This document shows, in pieces, positions 28,873 through 57,180 of a DNA stretch of 64,000 bases. The stretch's first letter is position 1, and each line of letters begins with the position of its first letter. The position numbers were made by a program, and so were the translations under genes. The stretch comes from Martinezella tropici. Its GTDB lineage: Bacteria; Pseudomonadota; Alphaproteobacteria; Rhizobiales; Rhizobiaceae. Under the pieces are notes generated by a model that saw nothing but the letters and a program-made list of their open reading frames with translations, made no database searches and was not told where the DNA came from. Where the stretch lies: positions 372,001-436,000 of the forward strand of contig JUHI01000001.1 of assembly GCA_000799755.1 (NCBI GenBank), read 5' to 3'.

Positions 28873-29397
28873 CGGGCAGCCACCGGTTCAATCAAACAAA
28901 CGAAAACTCGTGGGCAAGGATCGTCATCCCTGCCGCAACGCTCGCCTTTATCCGGCAACACGCCGGAAATATGGCAAACCTGCGGCGGCGTACCCTTTTC
29001 ACGTCACAAATGCACCAGGCATGAAAGCTGTAAAGTGCGGGCTTCAACCTGACCGCGTCTATGATCCGGGTCGCCCACAATGGCCGTACGAACCTCCGAA
29101 AGGGTTCTATTGCACCTGAAACGATGGCCCGGAATCGAAGGAAAAATATCACCTGCGCCCTAAGTGTATGATTGTGTTTAATTATATTCATTGCCGGAAG
29201 TTAGCCTTCCAGTATTGTACCCGTTTGAGAGGTTTCCTCGCTGTGAGTGACCGGTGCTGGTTATTTGCTACAGCAAAAGCATTCCGACATGCACTCGCGC
29301 CGCAGTAAAAAGGATGGTTACAACCCGAACGGCGTAGGTGGATTTCATTAATCTAGTAGCATTATCCCGGCCCCGAATTTTTGTTATCGGGGGCACA
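28873..29397. other. Intergenic boundary before the accessory region
   Basis: About 525 bases without a convincing gene. It separates backbone genes on the left from patchy accessory genes on the right. I looked for a tRNA or direct repeat that could mark an integration site and found none by eye. The stretch 29165-29215 is AT-rich. Confidence 0.4.
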
Positions 29398-30306
29398 ATG
29401 CGCAGCAGACCGACAGAAGATGAAATACTGGCTGAGATCGTCTCTGCCTCAGAGAGACAGCATATTGGTGGCGTTGCAGGCGGAAAAGGCTACCACTTCC
29501 AAGATATGGTTGCCGTAATTAGGATACTCGAGAGCGCTTCGACCTGCCTTGGCCCATCCGATGATCCATTTATCACTCAAGAGAAACGTGGATCAAAAAC
29601 AGATGATTTACACATGGATTGGCCGGAGAACTCCCATTCACGCCGGCACCAAATCAAAGCAGTAGAGAATCTTGGTTGGGACACCGATTTGCAACTGCAG
29701 TTCATCGTCGAGCACAGAAAGAATCCACGTGCTGACTTGCGATTAACAGTTCACCGGTCGAACCTCGCAGAAAAACTCGAGATTGAGCGACACAATTACG
29801 AGCTCTCTTTCGTAACCGTTGAGCACGTTGACATGTCGCTTCGCCGGCGGCCTCATCACGACCGTGAAATATGTCGGCATATCGACGCGTTGAGCTTGGT
29901 GCCACCCTACGCAACGTTCTTCGCCGCAATCTGGCATCACATATACTCGGTCTGGATTCATGATTGGGAGCGGACGGGCACACTACATGAGCTGTTCGAG
30001 GACCTCAGTCGTTCATCTGGCCATATTATAAGTTCGCTCACGCCGTCCACACAGGAGACCAATGAGCTCGTATGGTCCCTTAACGAGGCGCTAGGTGCGA
30101 GTTTGTATTTTGCCGCCGACGGTCAGACCCTGGTCATTACCGGGAGAAGAGGAAGGACTTACCTCCCGCTTGCCATACTCCTATCGTCGGTTGAAGACGA
30201 TTTTTGGGACGACTTTCCACGTGATCCATATGAATTTTGGAACAAGATCAGTGGCTTCGGAAGTGAGACGGAACTCGAAGATGAATACTATGACGGAGTC
30301 GATTGA
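29398..30306 (+). CDS. Predicted Cap4/DUF4297-like PD-(D/E)XK nuclease
   Basis: A 302-residue protein from the ATG at 29398, behind a G-rich ribosome site; a GTG at 29338 would add 20 poor residues. The N-terminus has GGKGYHFQDMVAVIRIL (29-44), the Gly-Phe-x-Phe-Gln-Asp-type opening seen in DUF4297/Cap4 effectors. It is followed by an acidic pair D69-D70 and Q85-I-K87 in HQIKAVE, the D...QxK arrangement of PD-(D/E)XK nucleases. The rest is helical and acidic at the C-terminus (ELEDEYYDGVD). It overlaps the next gene by 26 bases. The nuclease call is by motif only; a defence role is inferred from the family. Confidence 0.55.
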   Translation: MRSRPTEDEILAEIVSASERQHIGGVAGGKGYHFQDMVAVIRILESASTCLGPSDDPFITQEKRGSKTDDLHMDWPENSHSRRHQIKAVENLGWDTDLQLQFIVEHRKNPRADLRLTVHRSNLAEKLEIERHNYELSFVTVEHVDMSLRRRPHHDREICRHIDALSLVPPYATFFAAIWHHIYSVWIHDWERTGTLHELFEDLSRSSGHIISSLTPSTQETNELVWSLNEALGASLYFAADGQTLVITGRRGRTYLPLAILLSSVEDDFWDDFPRDPYEFWNKISGFGSETELEDEYYDGVD

Positions 30307-30967
30307 TCGTTTGTTTGCCTTGACCGATCGAAAAAGCGCTGCGCTTGAGCTAAAGATGCATGCGGAACTCGCGGCGAACGAACTCATCGCAAGGCTGGAC
30401 GGGCAGCCAGCATACGTGGTTGGTTCCGGCCCCGACCTGGATCAGTTCGGTGCAAAGGTGGCCGATAAACTTGGAGCCCAACTGATCGGCGCCGCAGGTA
30501 TATGGACGCACATCTTCCCTCATCGTGTTGCGAATGAGTTCCGAAACTTTTGCGTAACGCAAGAGGTGATTGAGCCCCTTCCGCTCAGGCCGACCATTGC
30601 GTTCTGCCAATCAGTAATAGCGGATGAATTCGAAGTGCAGACTATTATCTCGCGCTTACAGATGGAAGTGCAAATTCACCGCCTTATTATCTGTGCTGCG
30701 GCTTTGACGACCGGCTTGCGAGCCCGGCTTATGAGGTATTTCGAAAGGGCGGATATCCTGGTCGAATTCGTGGTGGCAATTGACCTCGAGGCGAACGCCG
30801 AATTGTTGCGCGACCATGTCTATTCTGTGCTCGACGACCGCCCAATAAAGGCGGTTCCCATCATGTCTCGTTGGATGATGAAGCGCATGTTCGGCCCCCG
30901 GCCATCCTATCATGACGACAATGAGCATCGGGAAACGCGTCGTAGACGTCTAGGACCGAGCGGCTGA
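30281..30967 (+). CDS. Degenerate phosphoribosyltransferase-like protein, partner of the nuclease
   Basis: A 228-residue soluble protein. Two in-frame ATGs (30281, 30290) both lie inside the preceding gene; 30281 is taken. The pattern resembles a type I phosphoribosyltransferase fold: ELAANELIARLDGQPAYVVGSGPDLDQFGAKVADKLGAQLIG, then a strand-loop PTIAFCQSVIADEFEVQTIISRL with an acidic pair (115-116) where PRPP binders have Asp-Asp, but without the usual TGGT loop, then VQIHRLIICAAALTTGLRARL. The tail is basic (HRETRRRRLG). PRTase-like proteins are known as accessory effectors in some retron defence systems. The fold assignment is tentative; the tight overlap makes a two-component unit likely. 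Confidence 0.4.
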   Translation: MNTMTESIDRLFALTDRKSAALELKMHAELAANELIARLDGQPAYVVGSGPDLDQFGAKVADKLGAQLIGAAGIWTHIFPHRVANEFRNFCVTQEVIEPLPLRPTIAFCQSVIADEFEVQTIISRLQMEVQIHRLIICAAALTTGLRARLMRYFERADILVEFVVAIDLEANAELLRDHVYSVLDDRPIKAVPIMSRWMMKRMFGPRPSYHDDNEHRETRRRRLGPSG

Positions 30968-49976: not shown

Positions 49977-51332
49977 ATGGCATATCGTACTATCGCACTT
50001 AGCGAGCTACTTGTTAATCGTTCGAACGATCGTCACGGTGAATTAGAGAACGAGACTGCAGCCATAGGCTGGCTTTTCTCCAATCATCTTGGGCAGATGC
50101 GAAAACTTGCCGAAGACATCGTGAAGTCCAAAGGGCTCTTCGAGCCGCCTCTGGTCTATCAGGAAGGGCGTCAGTTCATCGTATTCGATGGGAACCGCCG
50201 GACGACTTGCCTCAAGGTGTTGGCGGATCCAAAGCGTGCGCCGAACGCCGAGCTTCGAGAGTATTTTGAAAAACTTCGATCCCAGTGGGTCGGACATTTT
50301 CCCGATCGAATCCTTTGCCGGGTTGAACCCGATAGGGACGTGATCGATGAAATCCTCTACCGCCGTCATACGGGAAGCCAGTCCGGCGTCGGACAGAGCA
50401 CGTGGACAGGCCGGATGAAGACGACGTTCGTCAACCGGACGGGTAAGGGCGGTAAGTTCAACATCGCGGACGAAATTGAAACCAGATTGAGGGCTGCAGA
50501 CCTGCTTCCGAAATCAGGTCAGATACCGCGCAGCAATCTCAGTCGCCTTCTTTCCGCAGAAGCATTCCGGAACCGCGTAGGCATTTCGATGGCGAGAGGC
50601 CGCTTCGAATTTATTCGCAACGAAGAGGCTTCGCTGAAGGCTTTATCGCGGATCGCGGAAGATCTCGTATCCAAGCGCAAAACCCTGGACGACGTTTGGG
50701 ACGTTGACCGAAAGCTCGCCTATCTCGACGCGTTGGAACGGGAGGGAGTGCTCCCGACCGCAGCAGACGCTTTGCCTTCTCCTGGGTCCAGAGGGACAAA
50801 GCCGGCCAAACCAGTGACCGGCGCCTCGCCAAGTGCGGCCACAAATAGTGGCGTCGCTACCGTCGTTTCGATCACCACCGCACCTCGGCCGACCAAGCGT
50901 ACGGCGCTGATCCTTCAACATGATTCCGGGGTCGCGTGGACGGGCCGCCTGCAACGACAGCGAGCAATATGGGAGGAGCTTCAGTTCAAGCTCGACCTTG
51001 AAGAGCACCCCAATGCAATCGCCGTCCTATGCCGCGTGTTGATCGAGTTGTCGGTCGACAATTACCTCAAGCAAACCACGCTCGCTACGGCGGTGGAAAA
51101 CGACCCGCTCGTCAAAAAGATCGTTGCCGTTGCGGAAGACCTTCGTTCGCGGGAGAAGGTCGACAAGCGGTATCTCGAGGTCGTGCGTAAGGCTCGGACC
51201 ATGGACGCCATCATATCCGTCGACACCCTCAACAAGTATGTGCACTCGTCAAACCTTGCTCCAACATCGGAGCATCTCGCGGCGCTGTGGGACACGTTCG
51301 CGGAACTGGTGGTCCATTGCCTCAATGAATGA
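49977..51332 (+). CDS. ParB/Srx-like N-terminal protein of a two-gene cassette
   Basis: A 451-residue protein; the ATG at 49977 (MAYRTIALSELLVNRSNDRHGE) has GGGGG close upstream, while an ATG at 49962 would add five residues. The N-terminal 85 residues look like a ParB/sulfiredoxin-type domain: IALSELLVN, then LAEDIVKSKGLFEPPLVY, then FIVFDGNRRTTCLKVL with the diagnostic GNRR (about 72-75). A helical middle, a Ser/Thr/Pro-rich linker (270-310), and a C-terminal helical domain (DTLNKYVHSSNLAPTSEHL) follow. The ATP/nucleotide function of such domains is variable. It overlaps the HEPN-like gene by eight bases. No named defence family was recognised. Confidence 0.55.
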   Translation: MAYRTIALSELLVNRSNDRHGELENETAAIGWLFSNHLGQMRKLAEDIVKSKGLFEPPLVYQEGRQFIVFDGNRRTTCLKVLADPKRAPNAELREYFEKLRSQWVGHFPDRILCRVEPDRDVIDEILYRRHTGSQSGVGQSTWTGRMKTTFVNRTGKGGKFNIADEIETRLRAADLLPKSGQIPRSNLSRLLSAEAFRNRVGISMARGRFEFIRNEEASLKALSRIAEDLVSKRKTLDDVWDVDRKLAYLDALEREGVLPTAADALPSPGSRGTKPAKPVTGASPSAATNSGVATVVSITTAPRPTKRTALILQHDSGVAWTGRLQRQRAIWEELQFKLDLEEHPNAIAVLCRVLIELSVDNYLKQTTLATAVENDPLVKKIVAVAEDLRSREKVDKRYLEVVRKARTMDAIISVDTLNKYVHSSNLAPTSEHLAALWDTFAELVVHCLNE

Positions 51333-52158
51333 TCGGGCCTCACCTGCCGTTCGCAGTAGACCTCCGCGTCGCCAAACACGCTTTCTGAAACGTCATATCG
51401 CGACCTCCGACCATCATAGTTTCATCACGCGTCTGTCGGAGCTGGGCATCGTTGCCTACCACTTCGACAGCTACGAGGAGCTCTGCCGCCATCCTGACTG
51501 CAAATATGCCTATGACACTGGGCGGTGGATGAAGACACTAACCCGGCGCGTGGAATCCCTGAACATCGTTGGCGACATGTTGTGGCTCGACCCAGTGCCA
51601 CCAAACTTCAGAAAAATGCCTCTCACAAGATACCAGTGGCTTCAGATCACCAAGGATGTTTTCCTTGTCAGGTATGTATCCGTCGTCGACTGCGCGCTGC
51701 TTTTGATCAACGAGGTTTTCGAGATGGGGCTCCCGCAACGCGCCTGCACGATCGAACGAGTTGCCAAGGCGGACATCCCGACCGAACTACGGCGGCAACT
51801 CAAGGCGATCGCAGATAGCCAGGAACTGGTTCGTTCTGAGCGAAATAGTCGCGTTCACCGCGGTGTCGAACTAGAGCTCACCGACGACGATGCGACGTTC
51901 GAGACCGCCTCACTTTTCATAGATCGCTACAACGGAACGCGCGGCCGCGACCGACACGGCCGCAAACTTGATCTCGACATTGCTTTCCGCGCCGGTCTCG
52001 TAACCATGCAGCGCGAGTTCAATACGCAGGTACGCTCGCTGGAACGGCAGCTTGATGGCGTGTACGACCTACTATGGGAGGCGTTCGAAGCGAGGTTCGG
52101 CCCATTGATCGCCGCAGCGACACATGGCCTTAACGTCGGTTCGCGGCATCGCCCATGA
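51325..52158 (+). CDS. HEPN-like protein, predicted RNase partner
   Basis: A 277-residue protein starting at the ATG at 51325, inside the end of the ParB-like gene. After a basic N-terminus, a helical region carries QITKDVFLVRYVSVVDCALLLINEVFEM and then SERNSRVHRGVELE, where R173-x4-H178 matches the Rx4-6H active-site signature of HEPN ribonucleases. A C-terminal helical part follows (MQREFNTQVRSLERQLDGVYDLLWEAFEARF). Resemblance to Cthe_2314-type HEPN proteins is suggested but unchecked. HEPN enzymes commonly act as toxins or abortive-infection effectors. It converges on the DUF1989-GcvT gene with only 13 bases between. Confidence 0.5.
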   Translation: MNDRASPAVRSRPPRRQTRFLKRHIATSDHHSFITRLSELGIVAYHFDSYEELCRHPDCKYAYDTGRWMKTLTRRVESLNIVGDMLWLDPVPPNFRKMPLTRYQWLQITKDVFLVRYVSVVDCALLLINEVFEMGLPQRACTIERVAKADIPTELRRQLKAIADSQELVRSERNSRVHRGVELELTDDDATFETASLFIDRYNGTRGRDRHGRKLDLDIAFRAGLVTMQREFNTQVRSLERQLDGVYDLLWEAFEARFGPLIAAATHGLNVGSRHRP

Positions 52159-52171
52159 AGTTTGTTACCGC

Positions 52172-54424
52172 TCACGAGCGGGGCCGCAGTTTCTCAGGAT
52201 CGTAGTGCGCGAATCTTGCTACCGTCGCAGGCAGCCGCTTCGCGTGCCCATCGAGCTTGCCGATCTCGACTTGAGTACCTATCGCCGACGAGAGTGCGTC
52301 GATGCGTGCAAGAGCGATGTTTTTGCGAAGGATTGGCGACCGAGTACTGCTCGTCACAACGCCGACCTGGGCTTTTCCGATAAAGACGGCATCGCCGTGG
52401 CCAACCTCGTCGTTTGAATCTAAGTCGAGCCCGACGAGCTTGTAACGAGGATGCTCCTTACGTTGAAGAAGTGCCTCCCGACCAATGAAGTCGTCAGCCT
52501 TAGACTTCAGAGGAACGGTAAATCCAATACCCGCCTCGAACGGATCGGTCTCGGACGTGAACTCATGGTCGGCGAAAATCAATCCGGCCTCGATGCGAAG
52601 CATGTCGAGCGCTTCCAGCCCCATTGGCTTCAGACCAAAGTTCTTTCCGACCTCCCAAACAGCGTCGAACACCTCAAGTGCGTGTTTGGGGTGACAGAAT
52701 ATCTCGTAGCCGATTTCACCAGAGTAACCTGTGCGCGAGACCACCACGGGCACGCCCTCGAAATGACCGATCCTTCCAACACTGAAGCGAAACCACTCCA
52801 ACTCTCCTAGTGCCGGCTGGCCGGGTGCGGTCCAGATGACCTCCTTCAGCAAATCGCGGCTTTTTGGTCCCTGGACAGCGATGTTGTGCATCTGATCTGT
52901 CGAGGATCTGACCCAGACTTCGTATCCGATCTTCTGCGCCTGCTCGCGAAGCCAGACGCCGCTGTAATCGTCACCGCAGATCCAACGAAAGTTGTTGGGA
53001 CCGAGCTTGAAGACTGTTCCGTCGTCGATCATCCCGCCATTCGGGTAGCACATCGCCGTGTAGACCACATGGCCCACAGCCAGCTTGCGGATGTCCCTGG
53101 TCAGGCAGTACTGAAGCAAGGCCTCGGCGTCCGGCCCCGTTACCTCAAATTTCCGCAACGCCGAGAGATCTATCACGGCACATTGCTCACGGCATGCCCA
53201 GTACTCGGCCGTCGGACCCTCGTTGTTGAAGCGAGTTGGAAGCCAGAATCCGCGATACTCCGTATGATGGCGGGTAAGCGCGGAGAGGCGCGGATGAAAA
53301 GCCGTTTCTTTAGTCATCTGTGGTTCCGCATCTGGGGTCGGGCGATAGGCGATCGCGCGTGAAAACTTGTTGTCGGCAGCATAAGTGCGGACGAGAATGT
53401 CAGTGGGATTCCATCCATTTCCTGAATCGATGTCGTCCGGGCACGAGGAGCTGACACACACGATGTCGGTCAACGCCTTCATCAGCACGTAGTCGCCGGG
53501 ACGAGACCAAGCTTCGTCCGAAATGATCTGATCGTGCGCGTCGATTCTCGAGTTGTAAAAGAAGTTCAAAGCCTCCCACCCCTTGCGCGCGGCGATGCCG
53601 TAGGGATCGAGAGCGCCGTTGAAATTGTCCGTGCAATTGATATGGCCTGGATAGCCCATGTCGTCATACTGGCGAGAGTTGCAGGCCGTCGCGAAGGCGT
53701 CGTGTCTACCGACTGTGTCCCGAACGATCTCAACGAGTGGCTCGAAATCGAACGCAAATGCCTTGGACGGCAAGCCCGGAATGGGCATCGCACGATGGGT
53801 AAGCGTGCGCGTGACGGTCGCGTCGAGCGCGTGTTCGATCCCTGCATCTAACTTGCGGGCAGAGAAACACTGAAAGTCGGTCATCTGACGACCATCGATG
53901 TCAAGCACCTGGATGTACTCGCCCGCCTTGACAAGAAAAGCCTGAGCAGACGCCGCGCGAATGCGTATTTCCTGCAGCGGATCGCGAAGCGGATTCGGAA
54001 GCGGCGCCCCGCCCGCCTTCACGGCAGTTGGGTTTGCGCGTTGGATAAACACCTCCAGATCGGTCGCCGTGTTTTGTCCTGTCACCTCCATCTGGTCCGC
54101 CGGGGCTGAGATATGCAGGGTTGCGTCGCGCTGCACGATAAATTCGGCGCTTTCCCCGGCTCGACCAGATCCGAAAATGCAAAACGTTCCTTCGCCGCCT
54201 GAAAGGCCAAGAATGGAAATGTCATCACGCCCCTCGAAGTCGGTCGGCCTGACCTCCGCGCGCTGCAGCCCTTCTCTATCAATGATCTTGACGGCGTCGC
54301 CAGCTTTCACGGTGACCGCAAGGGAGCCGCCACCCTTCGCCAGGTAGCGCTCCGTCCCGATCGGAAGCGCACGGTGCGCGGGGCGGAGTACCCGACTGGG
54401 TCTTGGGGGGAGCAGAGAGGTCAT
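52172..54424 (-). CDS. DUF1989-GcvT fusion (aminomethyltransferase family)
   Basis: A 750-residue cytosolic protein; the ATG at 54424 (MTSLLPPRPSRVLRPAHRALPIG) has AAAGGAA six bases upstream. The N-terminal half contains DUF1989 (urea-carboxylase-associated) features, including a preceding related region: LVKAGEYIQVLDIDGRQMTDFQCF, ATACNSRQYDDMGYPGHINC, WEALNFFYNSRID and VCVSSSCPDDI. The C-terminal half is a folate-binding GcvT domain: CAVIDLSALRKFEVTGPDAEALLQ, VVVSRTGYSGEIGYEIF, EALDMLRIEAGL. GcvT transfers one-carbon units from amines to tetrahydrofolate. In this locus it probably acts on a methylated amine. The fusion partner may bind metal or add specificity. Confidence 0.85.
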   Translation of the reverse strand: MTSLLPPRPSRVLRPAHRALPIGTERYLAKGGGSLAVTVKAGDAVKIIDREGLQRAEVRPTDFEGRDDISILGLSGGEGTFCIFGSGRAGESAEFIVQRDATLHISAPADQMEVTGQNTATDLEVFIQRANPTAVKAGGAPLPNPLRDPLQEIRIRAASAQAFLVKAGEYIQVLDIDGRQMTDFQCFSARKLDAGIEHALDATVTRTLTHRAMPIPGLPSKAFAFDFEPLVEIVRDTVGRHDAFATACNSRQYDDMGYPGHINCTDNFNGALDPYGIAARKGWEALNFFYNSRIDAHDQIISDEAWSRPGDYVLMKALTDIVCVSSSCPDDIDSGNGWNPTDILVRTYAADNKFSRAIAYRPTPDAEPQMTKETAFHPRLSALTRHHTEYRGFWLPTRFNNEGPTAEYWACREQCAVIDLSALRKFEVTGPDAEALLQYCLTRDIRKLAVGHVVYTAMCYPNGGMIDDGTVFKLGPNNFRWICGDDYSGVWLREQAQKIGYEVWVRSSTDQMHNIAVQGPKSRDLLKEVIWTAPGQPALGELEWFRFSVGRIGHFEGVPVVVSRTGYSGEIGYEIFCHPKHALEVFDAVWEVGKNFGLKPMGLEALDMLRIEAGLIFADHEFTSETDPFEAGIGFTVPLKSKADDFIGREALLQRKEHPRYKLVGLDLDSNDEVGHGDAVFIGKAQVGVVTSSTRSPILRKNIALARIDALSSAIGTQVEIGKLDGHAKRLPATVARFAHYDPEKLRPRS

Positions 54425-54534
54425 GTGTTTCCTTTCGCTCGGACGGCCAACCACTTGCCGGCGAAGTCCGTGATAAGGAAACTAGCTATCGGGCGGATGG
54501 CCGGTCTATATCACCAAGGTAATACGAGGCGCTG

Positions 54535-57036
54535 TCAGCGGCGGCCGCGCGACCAGTGCTTGTTGGAGCGCTGTGCCGAGTTGCGCTTGGCGCTTTTCGC
54601 TACGACGCGCTTTTCTTCCTCGAACGATTTCCGCAAGGTATGTGTGAACATGTCTTCTTCCTTCATCCCAAGCGAATAAAGCTCTCGCTCCCTCATTTCC
54701 TCTTCCGCAAGGTACTCGATGAATTTCTCAACGCGATCGAGCCTGATTTTGACGCGCTCGAGACGCTCTCCCTTCGAAAACAGATCGAATTCCTGTCTGG
54801 CGGCGTCGACCAGATAGTTGCTAACCTGCTCGCTGAAGATGCCGCAATCGGTGCACACGAGATCGAGATATGAAAAGAAGTATGCGAGTTCGCGGACCAT
54901 GTAGAGCCCGTAGGTCGTGATCTTAACGCTGTCGACCTGGTCTGAGTACTGGTCCAATCGATTGTTGGATTCGACAAAGCCGTGCTTCAGGAGAACGTCG
55001 AGATTCGCTGTGAAGTCGTCACCCATGTTGAAGGTGTTCACGAAATAAGATTTGAGCTCCGCGACTGAGACGTAGGAAGGAGTCGTGCGCTCTATGCTCT
55101 TGGCCAGTTTCCGCATGATCCGAAGCGCGGTGAAATGCGAGCCATGCCGGGAATTCCTAACCTGATAGGCGTTCGGGATGTCCGACAGAGCCTCATCGTA
55201 AAAGTAGCGGTTTGGGATCATCACCGGCTTGATGATCTGGTGGATCTTGAAGACCCAATTTCCCGAACTCAACATTTCGTCGACGTTGGTGTAGCCGGAT
55301 AGCAGAAAGCTTCTGAAGAGGTCGAGAGACAACCGGGTGTCGCCATGGGCGCACGCTGTCAAGAAAGCGTTCAACGGCGACTGCTCGCTGTTGAAGTCCC
55401 TAAAAATGATCGACAGATAGTTCATCGAATCATCGATGATCTTCCCATTTGTATCCTCGAGGCCGATCTTGTGACGGCGCTGCGGTTCGTTAAGCAGCGA
55501 ATTCACGTAGCTTATTCGCTTCTTGAACACAGTCGAGGGCTTGGGGGAGCTGATGTGAAACCCCGAATTCTGGAATGCGTCCAGAAGTCCGTGAATCTTT
55601 GAGTTGTAGAAGCGTTCCTCGCGCATCGAGATCAGAGTGACGCAATTCAGCAGGTTGCTGATCTCCTGGGCTGATGTGAAGCAAAAGTCCTGAAGTTCCG
55701 GGGAATACTGGTCGGTGTTGTCGACAACGACGATCACGCCTTTTCCCTTCGACGCCCAATAAGACGCGAGCCTGGCGGCACAGTACGGCTTGTCCTGCTT
55801 CCATTCGGCGGCGAGTGCGTTCAGACGGGAATTGTAAATTTCGGACTTTCTGTCGAATCCTTCCAGATCCTGCTTTCGTGCAATCTCGAAGCGGTCGGCG
55901 AACAGCTCCTTCAACAGATTATCACGTGCCGACTGAAGCAATCCGTCGACATCTAAGGATTCGACCAAGCTCGACCATATCGTTTCACGGATAACGCTTT
56001 GGTCTTCCGGAACTTTGAGGAGATCTACGATAGCGATGACCGAATGCTCGCGAAGCCACCTTGGCGGATTGTGCCGTAGGACCCGCTTCACGAAAGTCGA
56101 TTTGCCGGCGCCCTTGCCGCCGAAAAGTACGAGGACCTCGCCCCTCCTGCCACGCTTGATGTTCTTGGTGAGACGACCTCCAAGCTGCCCGCCCCTTCCG
56201 GTGTTCTCTAACTGATTGACGCCGTAGCCCTTGAAATAGGGGCTCAAGGAATCCTCGATGAGAACGTTGATCCCCTCGGACATTTGCGTGTAGTCGCTCT
56301 GCGAGACGTAGCAACGCTCCATGAACTCCGTGTCGTCGTCCCCGATCACGCCGAAGTAATGATTAACGATCGGCCGGAGCGTACCGGCAAGCCTGTTCGA
56401 ATTGATCTTGTGGCCGTACGAAGGGATTTTCTCCTTCGGAAAGAAGATATGTCTGTCCTTGGGAGGCGAGCTTGAAAGGGCTTCGTTGAGCGAAGCGCGA
56501 TCGAAGATCGCCCCGAAGGAAAACATGTTTTGGCTTTTTGTGAAATCCTTGTCGAAGAACGCCAGGCTCCGAATGACGAAGGCCTGCAGGTTTTCAAAGC
56601 GTTTCCCCTTTTCGAACGTCTTAAAGAAGATCCATTCGTGACCATTGGTGATGCAGGCGTATTCACAGCCGGTGTCGAAGCAATAGCCTTTGACCTGGTT
56701 GATCGCCGCTTTGATGTTTTCGTTCGACATCAGCTTCGACATCGACATGTAGCAGTGCGTCTCGCTGTCGACATATGGGAAAGGCAGGTCGAAATAGACG
56801 CCAGCTTTTTTGGCTTCGATGAACAGAAGATGATCGCCATTTGCCTTCTTCAGCACATAGTCGGCAAATCCCGGCGCGATATACTCTTCGACTGAGACAC
56901 GATTGCGTGGCCAAGATAGGCAGTCATGAATGATGCCATCGATAATTTTGTGTCTCGTCTCCGCTTCGTTGCGGTCTCTGGATTTGTTGGCGTCTACGAT
57001 TTCTCGGACGCAGGCAAGCTTATCCGTTACTGACAT
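54535..57036 (-). CDS. Nuclease-NTPase fusion, predicted defence protein
   Basis: An 833-residue protein. Residues 1-160 resemble a type I restriction R-subunit N-terminal nuclease: VSVEEYIAPGFADYVLKK with D59 and LLFIEAKKAG with E74-x-K76, then INQVKGYCFDTGCEYACITNG. Residues about 295-560 form a P-loop NTPase: Walker A GGKGAGKS (306-313), Walker B VIVVVDNTDQ (434-443), and SMREERFYNSK after it. The remaining 270 residues are helical, with a very basic end (SAKRNSAQRSNKHWSRGRR). The layout resembles STAND/AVAST-type antiviral effectors but is shorter. It is monocistronic, inserted between betaine-catabolism genes. I recognise no exact named family. Confidence 0.6.
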   Translation of the reverse strand: MSVTDKLACVREIVDANKSRDRNEAETRHKIIDGIIHDCLSWPRNRVSVEEYIAPGFADYVLKKANGDHLLFIEAKKAGVYFDLPFPYVDSETHCYMSMSKLMSNENIKAAINQVKGYCFDTGCEYACITNGHEWIFFKTFEKGKRFENLQAFVIRSLAFFDKDFTKSQNMFSFGAIFDRASLNEALSSSPPKDRHIFFPKEKIPSYGHKINSNRLAGTLRPIVNHYFGVIGDDDTEFMERCYVSQSDYTQMSEGINVLIEDSLSPYFKGYGVNQLENTGRGGQLGGRLTKNIKRGRRGEVLVLFGGKGAGKSTFVKRVLRHNPPRWLREHSVIAIVDLLKVPEDQSVIRETIWSSLVESLDVDGLLQSARDNLLKELFADRFEIARKQDLEGFDRKSEIYNSRLNALAAEWKQDKPYCAARLASYWASKGKGVIVVVDNTDQYSPELQDFCFTSAQEISNLLNCVTLISMREERFYNSKIHGLLDAFQNSGFHISSPKPSTVFKKRISYVNSLLNEPQRRHKIGLEDTNGKIIDDSMNYLSIIFRDFNSEQSPLNAFLTACAHGDTRLSLDLFRSFLLSGYTNVDEMLSSGNWVFKIHQIIKPVMIPNRYFYDEALSDIPNAYQVRNSRHGSHFTALRIMRKLAKSIERTTPSYVSVAELKSYFVNTFNMGDDFTANLDVLLKHGFVESNNRLDQYSDQVDSVKITTYGLYMVRELAYFFSYLDLVCTDCGIFSEQVSNYLVDAARQEFDLFSKGERLERVKIRLDRVEKFIEYLAEEEMRERELYSLGMKEEDMFTHTLRKSFEEEKRVVAKSAKRNSAQRSNKHWSRGRR

Positions 57037-57180
57037 TCAGCGCACTTCCCAAACTGCGAATCACATCTCGAAAATATCCTGTAAGTTGTGTGTTCAGGGC
57101 GACGCAGTCAACCACGGTGAGCGATACAGCGCGTGCTTTTCCCTGCTTTCCCCCGACCGAAAACAGACCCCGCCGGTCCT

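Follow-up and report, generated by a model that had tools for sequence, protein, structure and literature searches.

The two genes and their products

The DNA described here is a stretch of 64,000 nucleotides from Martinezella tropici (contig JUHI01000001.1, positions 372,001 to 436,000), called the window below. It contains a pair of overlapping genes, A and B. Protein A belongs to the family of the first protein of the phage-defence system PD-λ-5. Protein B is, judged from its sequence, a Cthe_2314-family HEPN protein and a predicted ribonuclease (RNase). The pairing of these two families is conserved at other loci, the methylase partner known from PD-λ-5 is absent, and A proteins of this kind are split from their methylase-paired relatives. 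The features of the pair are as follows.

49977-51332, + strand: gene A, open frame, 451 amino acids
49977-50408, + strand: ParB/Srx-fold N-terminal domain of A, residues 1-144 (predicted structure)
50190-50201, + strand: GNRR motif of A, residues 72-75, within D-G-N-R-R (119 of 120 sequences; the remaining one is gapped there)
50937-51329, + strand: HEPN-like C-terminal domain of A, residues 321-451 (predicted structure)
51228-51245, + strand: degenerate HEPN motif L-N-K-Y-V-H of A, residues 418-423 (His kept, Leu in place of Arg)
51325-52158, + strand: gene B, open frame, 277 amino acids
51325-51332, + strand: eight-base overlap ATGAATGA in which A stops and B starts (read from the sequence; the same overlap occurs at loci L023, L024 and L025)
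51841-51858, + strand: RNSRVH, the R173-x4-H178 motif of B, predicted to be catalytic (120 of 120 sequences)

The initial annotation had described two genes overlapping by eight bases and lying 13 bases from a convergent gene. Both details are borne out: the two frames are open, B ends at 52158, and the convergent gene ends at 52172.

Protein A matches the PADLOC model PD-Lambda-5_A (PDLC03998) at 2.7e-77 over residues 1-446 of 451. Its predicted structure consists of a ParB-fold N-terminal domain, a helical middle part, a low-confidence linker and a HEPN-like C-terminal domain. The ParB fold of the N-terminal domain is supported by this model, and the GNRR motif recognised at the outset as ParB/Srx-type lies within it; we take this motif to be the counterpart of the phosphate-binding motif of ParB. 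Searched up to an E-value of 1, Pfam gives no ParB profile for A, no nuclease domain, and a single weak match to GmrSD_N (E 0.19). Relatives of A among solved structures were not found by sequence at E up to 1, and a profile search returned only weak matches to PII proteins (E 0.3-0.4).

The C-terminal region of A had been described as long and helical. It is modelled as a domain resembling HEPN without the catalytic arginine, which that description overlooked. In an alignment of 120 sequences (A and 119 relatives), H423 is present in all 120, and position 418 is occupied by Leu in 118 sequences, by Met in the other two and by Arg in none. The test for the HEPN motif in this domain covered the R-x4-H spacing.

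Protein B matches the Pfam family HEPN_Cthe2314 (PF18730) with an E-value of 5.7e-8 and 33.4 bits, above the cut-off of 27.1. This agrees with the HEPN signature first noticed by eye. The mere presence of R-x4-H is at chance level, as at least one such motif occurs in 72% of shuffles of the Arg-rich B, and B itself has three. The conservation of R173 and H178 is not a matter of chance, because both are kept in 120 of 120 sequences, as the proposed motif would require; R170, E172, R176, G180 and E182 are likewise invariant. The model of B is all-helical, with a mean pLDDT of 86.9. Structure alone was rejected as proof of a HEPN fold, the best structural matches being unrelated helical proteins. 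No relative of B with a solved structure was found by sequence at E up to 1 or by profile. Profile comparisons revealed no similarity of B to A, nor to a third gene found at a plasmid locus with a B relative (L022, 6795-7379).

Partners of A and the missing methylase

Relatives of B were found at 17 HEPN loci outside the window: 14 on genome contigs (L023-L036), two on plasmids (L019 and L022) and one in genome G414 (L118). The 14 on genome contigs were obtained with an alignment as the query; the sequence of B alone gave none. At 13 of the 17 loci, A adjoins B or is separated from it by one small gene, in line with the coupling suggested at first. The two genes run in the same direction at five of these (L023, L024, L025, L028 and L118), diverge at five (L019, L026, L027, L029 and L033) and converge at three (L031, L032 and L034). 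Elsewhere, an open B frame lies beside a mere remnant of A (L022) or has no A within about 8 kb (L030 and L036), and one locus lies at a contig edge (L035). Of the 384 other genomes of the class, just 22 have full or partial matches to the A family, so this pairing is far above chance (crude binomial 2e-13, for loci that are not independent).

Both genes are whole at 10 of the other HEPN loci. Both are incomplete in frame at L019 and L028, while at L027 A is split and B is open; a further broken copy of A is found at L040. At L019, which lies on an Azospirillum plasmid (3284-8160), the HEPN gene and A are each interrupted by insertion sequences, of the IS1595 and IS5 types.

All bacteria named among the relatives of the pair belong to the Alphaproteobacteria. 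The distribution of B is sparse and patchy, with the gene found in 0 of 99 relatives and in 1 of 384 other genomes of the class. Relatives of A occur in five phage records and six plasmid records, all below 60% identity, and no stretch among viral contigs fitted the A patterns.

A second kind of partner is the D12 adenine methylase that PADLOC calls PD-Lambda-5_B. It adjoins a relative of A at L020 and L039, and lies one gene away at L041. When three such methylases were used as queries, no match was found in the 64 kb window or at any of the 17 other HEPN loci. The PADLOC model PDLC04018 (PD-Lambda-5_B) likewise has no match in the whole genome to which the window belongs.

The relationship between the two kinds of A can be seen in a tree of 27 A proteins, of which 9 are methylase-paired, 11 HEPN-paired (including that of the window), one is paired with a GIY-YIG-like gene, and for 6 no partner was found. 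All nine methylase-paired proteins lie on one side of a branch with support of 93/90, recovered in 90% of 200 bootstrap trees. On the other side are all the HEPN-paired proteins, the GIY-YIG-paired one and the six without a found partner. By sequence, methylase-free A is thus distinct from methylase-paired A, although some branches are long and the position of single rows is unsure. The HEPN-paired proteins do not form one clade, and five changes are needed on the tree, so the HEPN partner was gained or lost several times.

The tree leaves out the broken copies at L019, L027, L028 and L040, the remnant at L022, and L038, a near copy of L037. Partial or short matches to A were also left out (L041, L096-L098, L100, L101 and L102-L108). 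The solo labels of L089, L090 and L092 come from flanks of 1.5 kb followed by a class search that apparently sampled the same 385 genomes; a HEPN relative turned up there only in G000 and G414. For G452 and G377, the solo check took in 12 kb. The sequence of L018 ends about 0.6 kb after A, and its partner label is not firm.

Possible functions of the pair

The pair is likely an anti-phage module, a reading to which we give a probability of about 0.5. In this model, a relative of PD-λ-5 protein A senses an invader and switches on a HEPN protein that is predicted to be an RNase, and growth stops. On the assumption that A is the component shared with PD-λ-5, sensing is probably its task, with the outcome set by the partner, here the predicted RNase. 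What A senses may be invading DNA or nucleotides, and its ParB-fold domain would bind nucleotide or DNA. The Arg-less HEPN-like domain of A offers an obvious docking site and may dock onto B. Once switched on, B would cut RNA, its presumed target, and the outcome would be abortive infection or dormancy. Lacking a methylase, the pair cannot tell self from non-self by the mark on which PD-λ-5 presumably relies, which makes the state of the phage DNA or of the nucleotide pool a more probable trigger than a missing methyl group.

The idea of a defence setting finds some support in the PADLOC match of A and in the neighbourhoods of its relatives. For instance, one relative of A lies about 75 bases before the Gabija genes GajA and GajB, on the same strand and with no HEPN gene (L115, 1714-6937, genome G452). 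Another, also with no HEPN gene, is separated by about 2 kb from genes for a CBASS cyclase and a SAVED-HNH effector (L037, 1351-15199, genome G039). This protein is the closest relative of A in the genus, at 75% identity, and a C5 DNA methylase is also near. At the HEPN loci themselves, an OLD/Gabija-type ATPase follows L033, an OLD-type ATPase lies near L036, and a HEPN_RES_NTD1-RES gene follows B at L024.

Some HEPN loci carry an additional gene. A small gene of one family is present at 5 of the 17 (L029, L032, L034, L035 and L118). The copies at L035 and L118, and one at L117, pass the Pfam cut-offs for MUG113 or T5orf172, which we take to be GIY-YIG-type domains; the copy at L034 falls below. 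At L117 this gene stands beside A, with no B in 12 kb. Three other loci (L022, L033 and L036) have a gene of 185-195 amino acids with an R-D-x-F-I-H stretch. The two kinds of gene never occur together at the 17 loci, and neither is present in the window.

There is also a broader, tentative reading. PD-Lambda-5_A might be a swappable immune sensor, a single adaptor made of a ParB fold and an Arg-less HEPN domain, working with a methylase in one lineage and, in a methylase-free lineage, driving interchangeable nucleases, which would amount to restriction-like immunity without a self mark. These nucleases could include the Cthe_2314 HEPN RNase, the GIY-YIG-like protein, the second R-x4-H protein and perhaps Gabija. 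We consider this wider picture possible but doubtful.

An unlikely alternative is a toxin-antitoxin system, in which A would hold a HEPN toxin inactive, capping it with its Arg-less HEPN-like domain, until a phage disturbs A and frees the toxin. HEPN toxins are usually paired with a partner domain in known toxin-antitoxin systems, and the order of the genes, with the antitoxin first and an overlap that recurs at three other loci, is what such a system would show. In a type II system, however, the toxin should never be intact without its antitoxin, and here open HEPN frames accompany a split A (L027), a remnant (L022) or no A at all (L030 and L036). A required antitoxin is disfavoured for this reason, and A as an activator is preferred. 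A is also found without a HEPN gene. Next in plausibility, and again improbable, is a model in which A itself, like its counterpart in PD-λ-5, is a DNA-acting protein of ParB type and the main effector, with the HEPN protein kept as a suicidal back-up. This would be a methylase-free version of the combined restriction-modification and abortive infection (RM+Abi) logic in which PD-λ-5 has been described (PMC9519451). It would suit the copy of A that stands without B directly before Gabija genes, and the GIY-YIG-like genes at 5 of 17 HEPN loci. It is hard to see, however, on what basis A would discriminate between self and non-self if no methylase is present, and the Pfam search that detected no nuclease domain in A also speaks against it.

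The pair may also have nothing to do with immunity, being either a regulator or decaying mobile cargo without a present role. The broken copies of A point in this direction. So do the neighbours of the HEPN loci: of 25 open reading frames (ORFs) compared with Pfam, 15 look ordinary, 3 are of defence type and the other 7 are without a match. Yet both frames of the window are intact, the motif residues are invariant in the 120 sequences, and both genes are whole at ten other loci, so that we judge this explanation quite improbable. Least probable by far is a metabolic partnership with betaine genes, for which the sole argument is position, the pair being flanked by betaine transport genes on one side and a GCV_T gene on the other. 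The betaine neighbours of the window are found in 0 of 35 other stretches with A or HEPN, and a metabolic role was rejected on this ground. The sole matches to those neighbours are generic ABC ATPases of less than 30% identity in three of the 35. Among these stretches, L085 and L086 represent a single place and L038 is a near copy of L037; for L085-L095 the flanks extend to only about 1.5 kb.

The surroundings of the pair are as first described, with betaine transport genes before it and demethylation-type genes after it. On the 5' side of A, Pfam identifies an OpuAC binding protein, an ABC ATPase and a permease. The convergent gene downstream has DUF1989, GCV_T and GCV_T_C domains, and a DAO/GCV_T protein is encoded farther on. 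The GC content of the pair does not depart from its surroundings, and scans for promoters, terminators, repeats and tRNAs gave nothing above chance or of use. A search of 147 further genomes of the genus gave only short DNA matches to the upstream permease region, the best of 130 bases, so the isolated insertion proposed at first finds no support from an empty site. At 29 relatives of the GCV_T gene in the genus, the other tested neighbours are absent within the 1.5 kb flank, and the DMGDH matches at these places come from within the GCV_T gene. Contig C24 of the same genome carries a second GCV_T/DUF1989 gene with about 70% identity. The assembly has 8.05 Mb in 74 contigs, with a listed contamination of 8.97%. 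A contaminant contig was considered and is unlikely: for a core gene carried by this contig, 25 genomes sampled from the genus show identities of up to 96%.

Two further places in the window deserve mention. At 54535-57036 on the - strand, 80 bases beyond the GCV_T gene, lies a gene for a protein of 833 amino acids with matches to AAA_16 and HSDR_N_2 just below the Pfam cut-offs. It is patchy, with a match in 3 of 60 other relatives, one of them (G007) at 94% identity. The DNA similarity of G007 to the window spans only 54503-57111, and for this reason the gene looks like a separate mobile element of defence type. At 29338-30967 on the + strand are two overlapping ORFs of 322 and 290 amino acids, neither with a Pfam match up to E 0.001. 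The first has no PADLOC match, and a Q-E-K stretch suggests a nuclease by eye.

Relation to known systems

The initial annotation knew of no named system with this composition. That statement needs to be divided: the first gene is a PD-Lambda-5_A relative and so belongs with a known system, while the combination with its partner is new. In the open-licence literature, which most subscription papers lie outside, no report of PD-λ-5 A paired with a Cthe_2314 HEPN protein was found.

The closest system is PD-λ-5 itself, whose protein A is matched end to end by that of the window. Tested in E. coli against ten phages, PD-λ-5 altered plaquing or plaque size for nine of them, and its authors regard it as an RM+Abi system in a compacted form belonging to prophages (PMC9519451, Vassallo et al. 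2022). The literature available, seen in part, offered no worked-out mechanism for it. PD-λ-5 has the D12 adenine methylase PD-Lambda-5_B, where the window pair has a Cthe_2314 HEPN protein instead. Because the methylase is missing, the pair is not PD-λ-5 but a variant that builds on the first protein of that system. A natural lineage in which A persists without the methylase isolates the action of A itself and shows which effector A can drive. Existing PADLOC models recognise such loci by half, since they detect A and not B.

Another comparison is with the Cthe_2314 HEPN family (PF18730), to which B belongs by its Pfam score and its retained R-x4-H. A table in the 2013 survey of HEPN proteins lists architecture and operon of this family as "None detected" (Anantharaman et al. 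2013, PMC3710099). With A, the family gains a conserved partner and a testable role. The same survey describes ParB-HEPN fusions (Saro_3948) and a MAE_28990 HEPN protein in an operon with ParB and methylase genes (PMC3710099). Like the window pair, these combine HEPN and ParB, in an operon or in one protein. Judged from their description there, the MAE_28990 operons are set apart by a different HEPN family and by the presence of a methylase.

Finally, GmrSD, a DUF262 ParB-fold NTPase with an HNH nuclease, resembles the A-B pair in its ParB/Srx-fold domain, its D-G-x-x-R motif and its adjacent nuclease (PMC10952713). Its effector is an HNH-type DNase and not a HEPN protein, and the match of A to GmrSD_N is insignificant. 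The new element of the locus is the partner of A, a HEPN protein in place of the methylase, and not the first gene.
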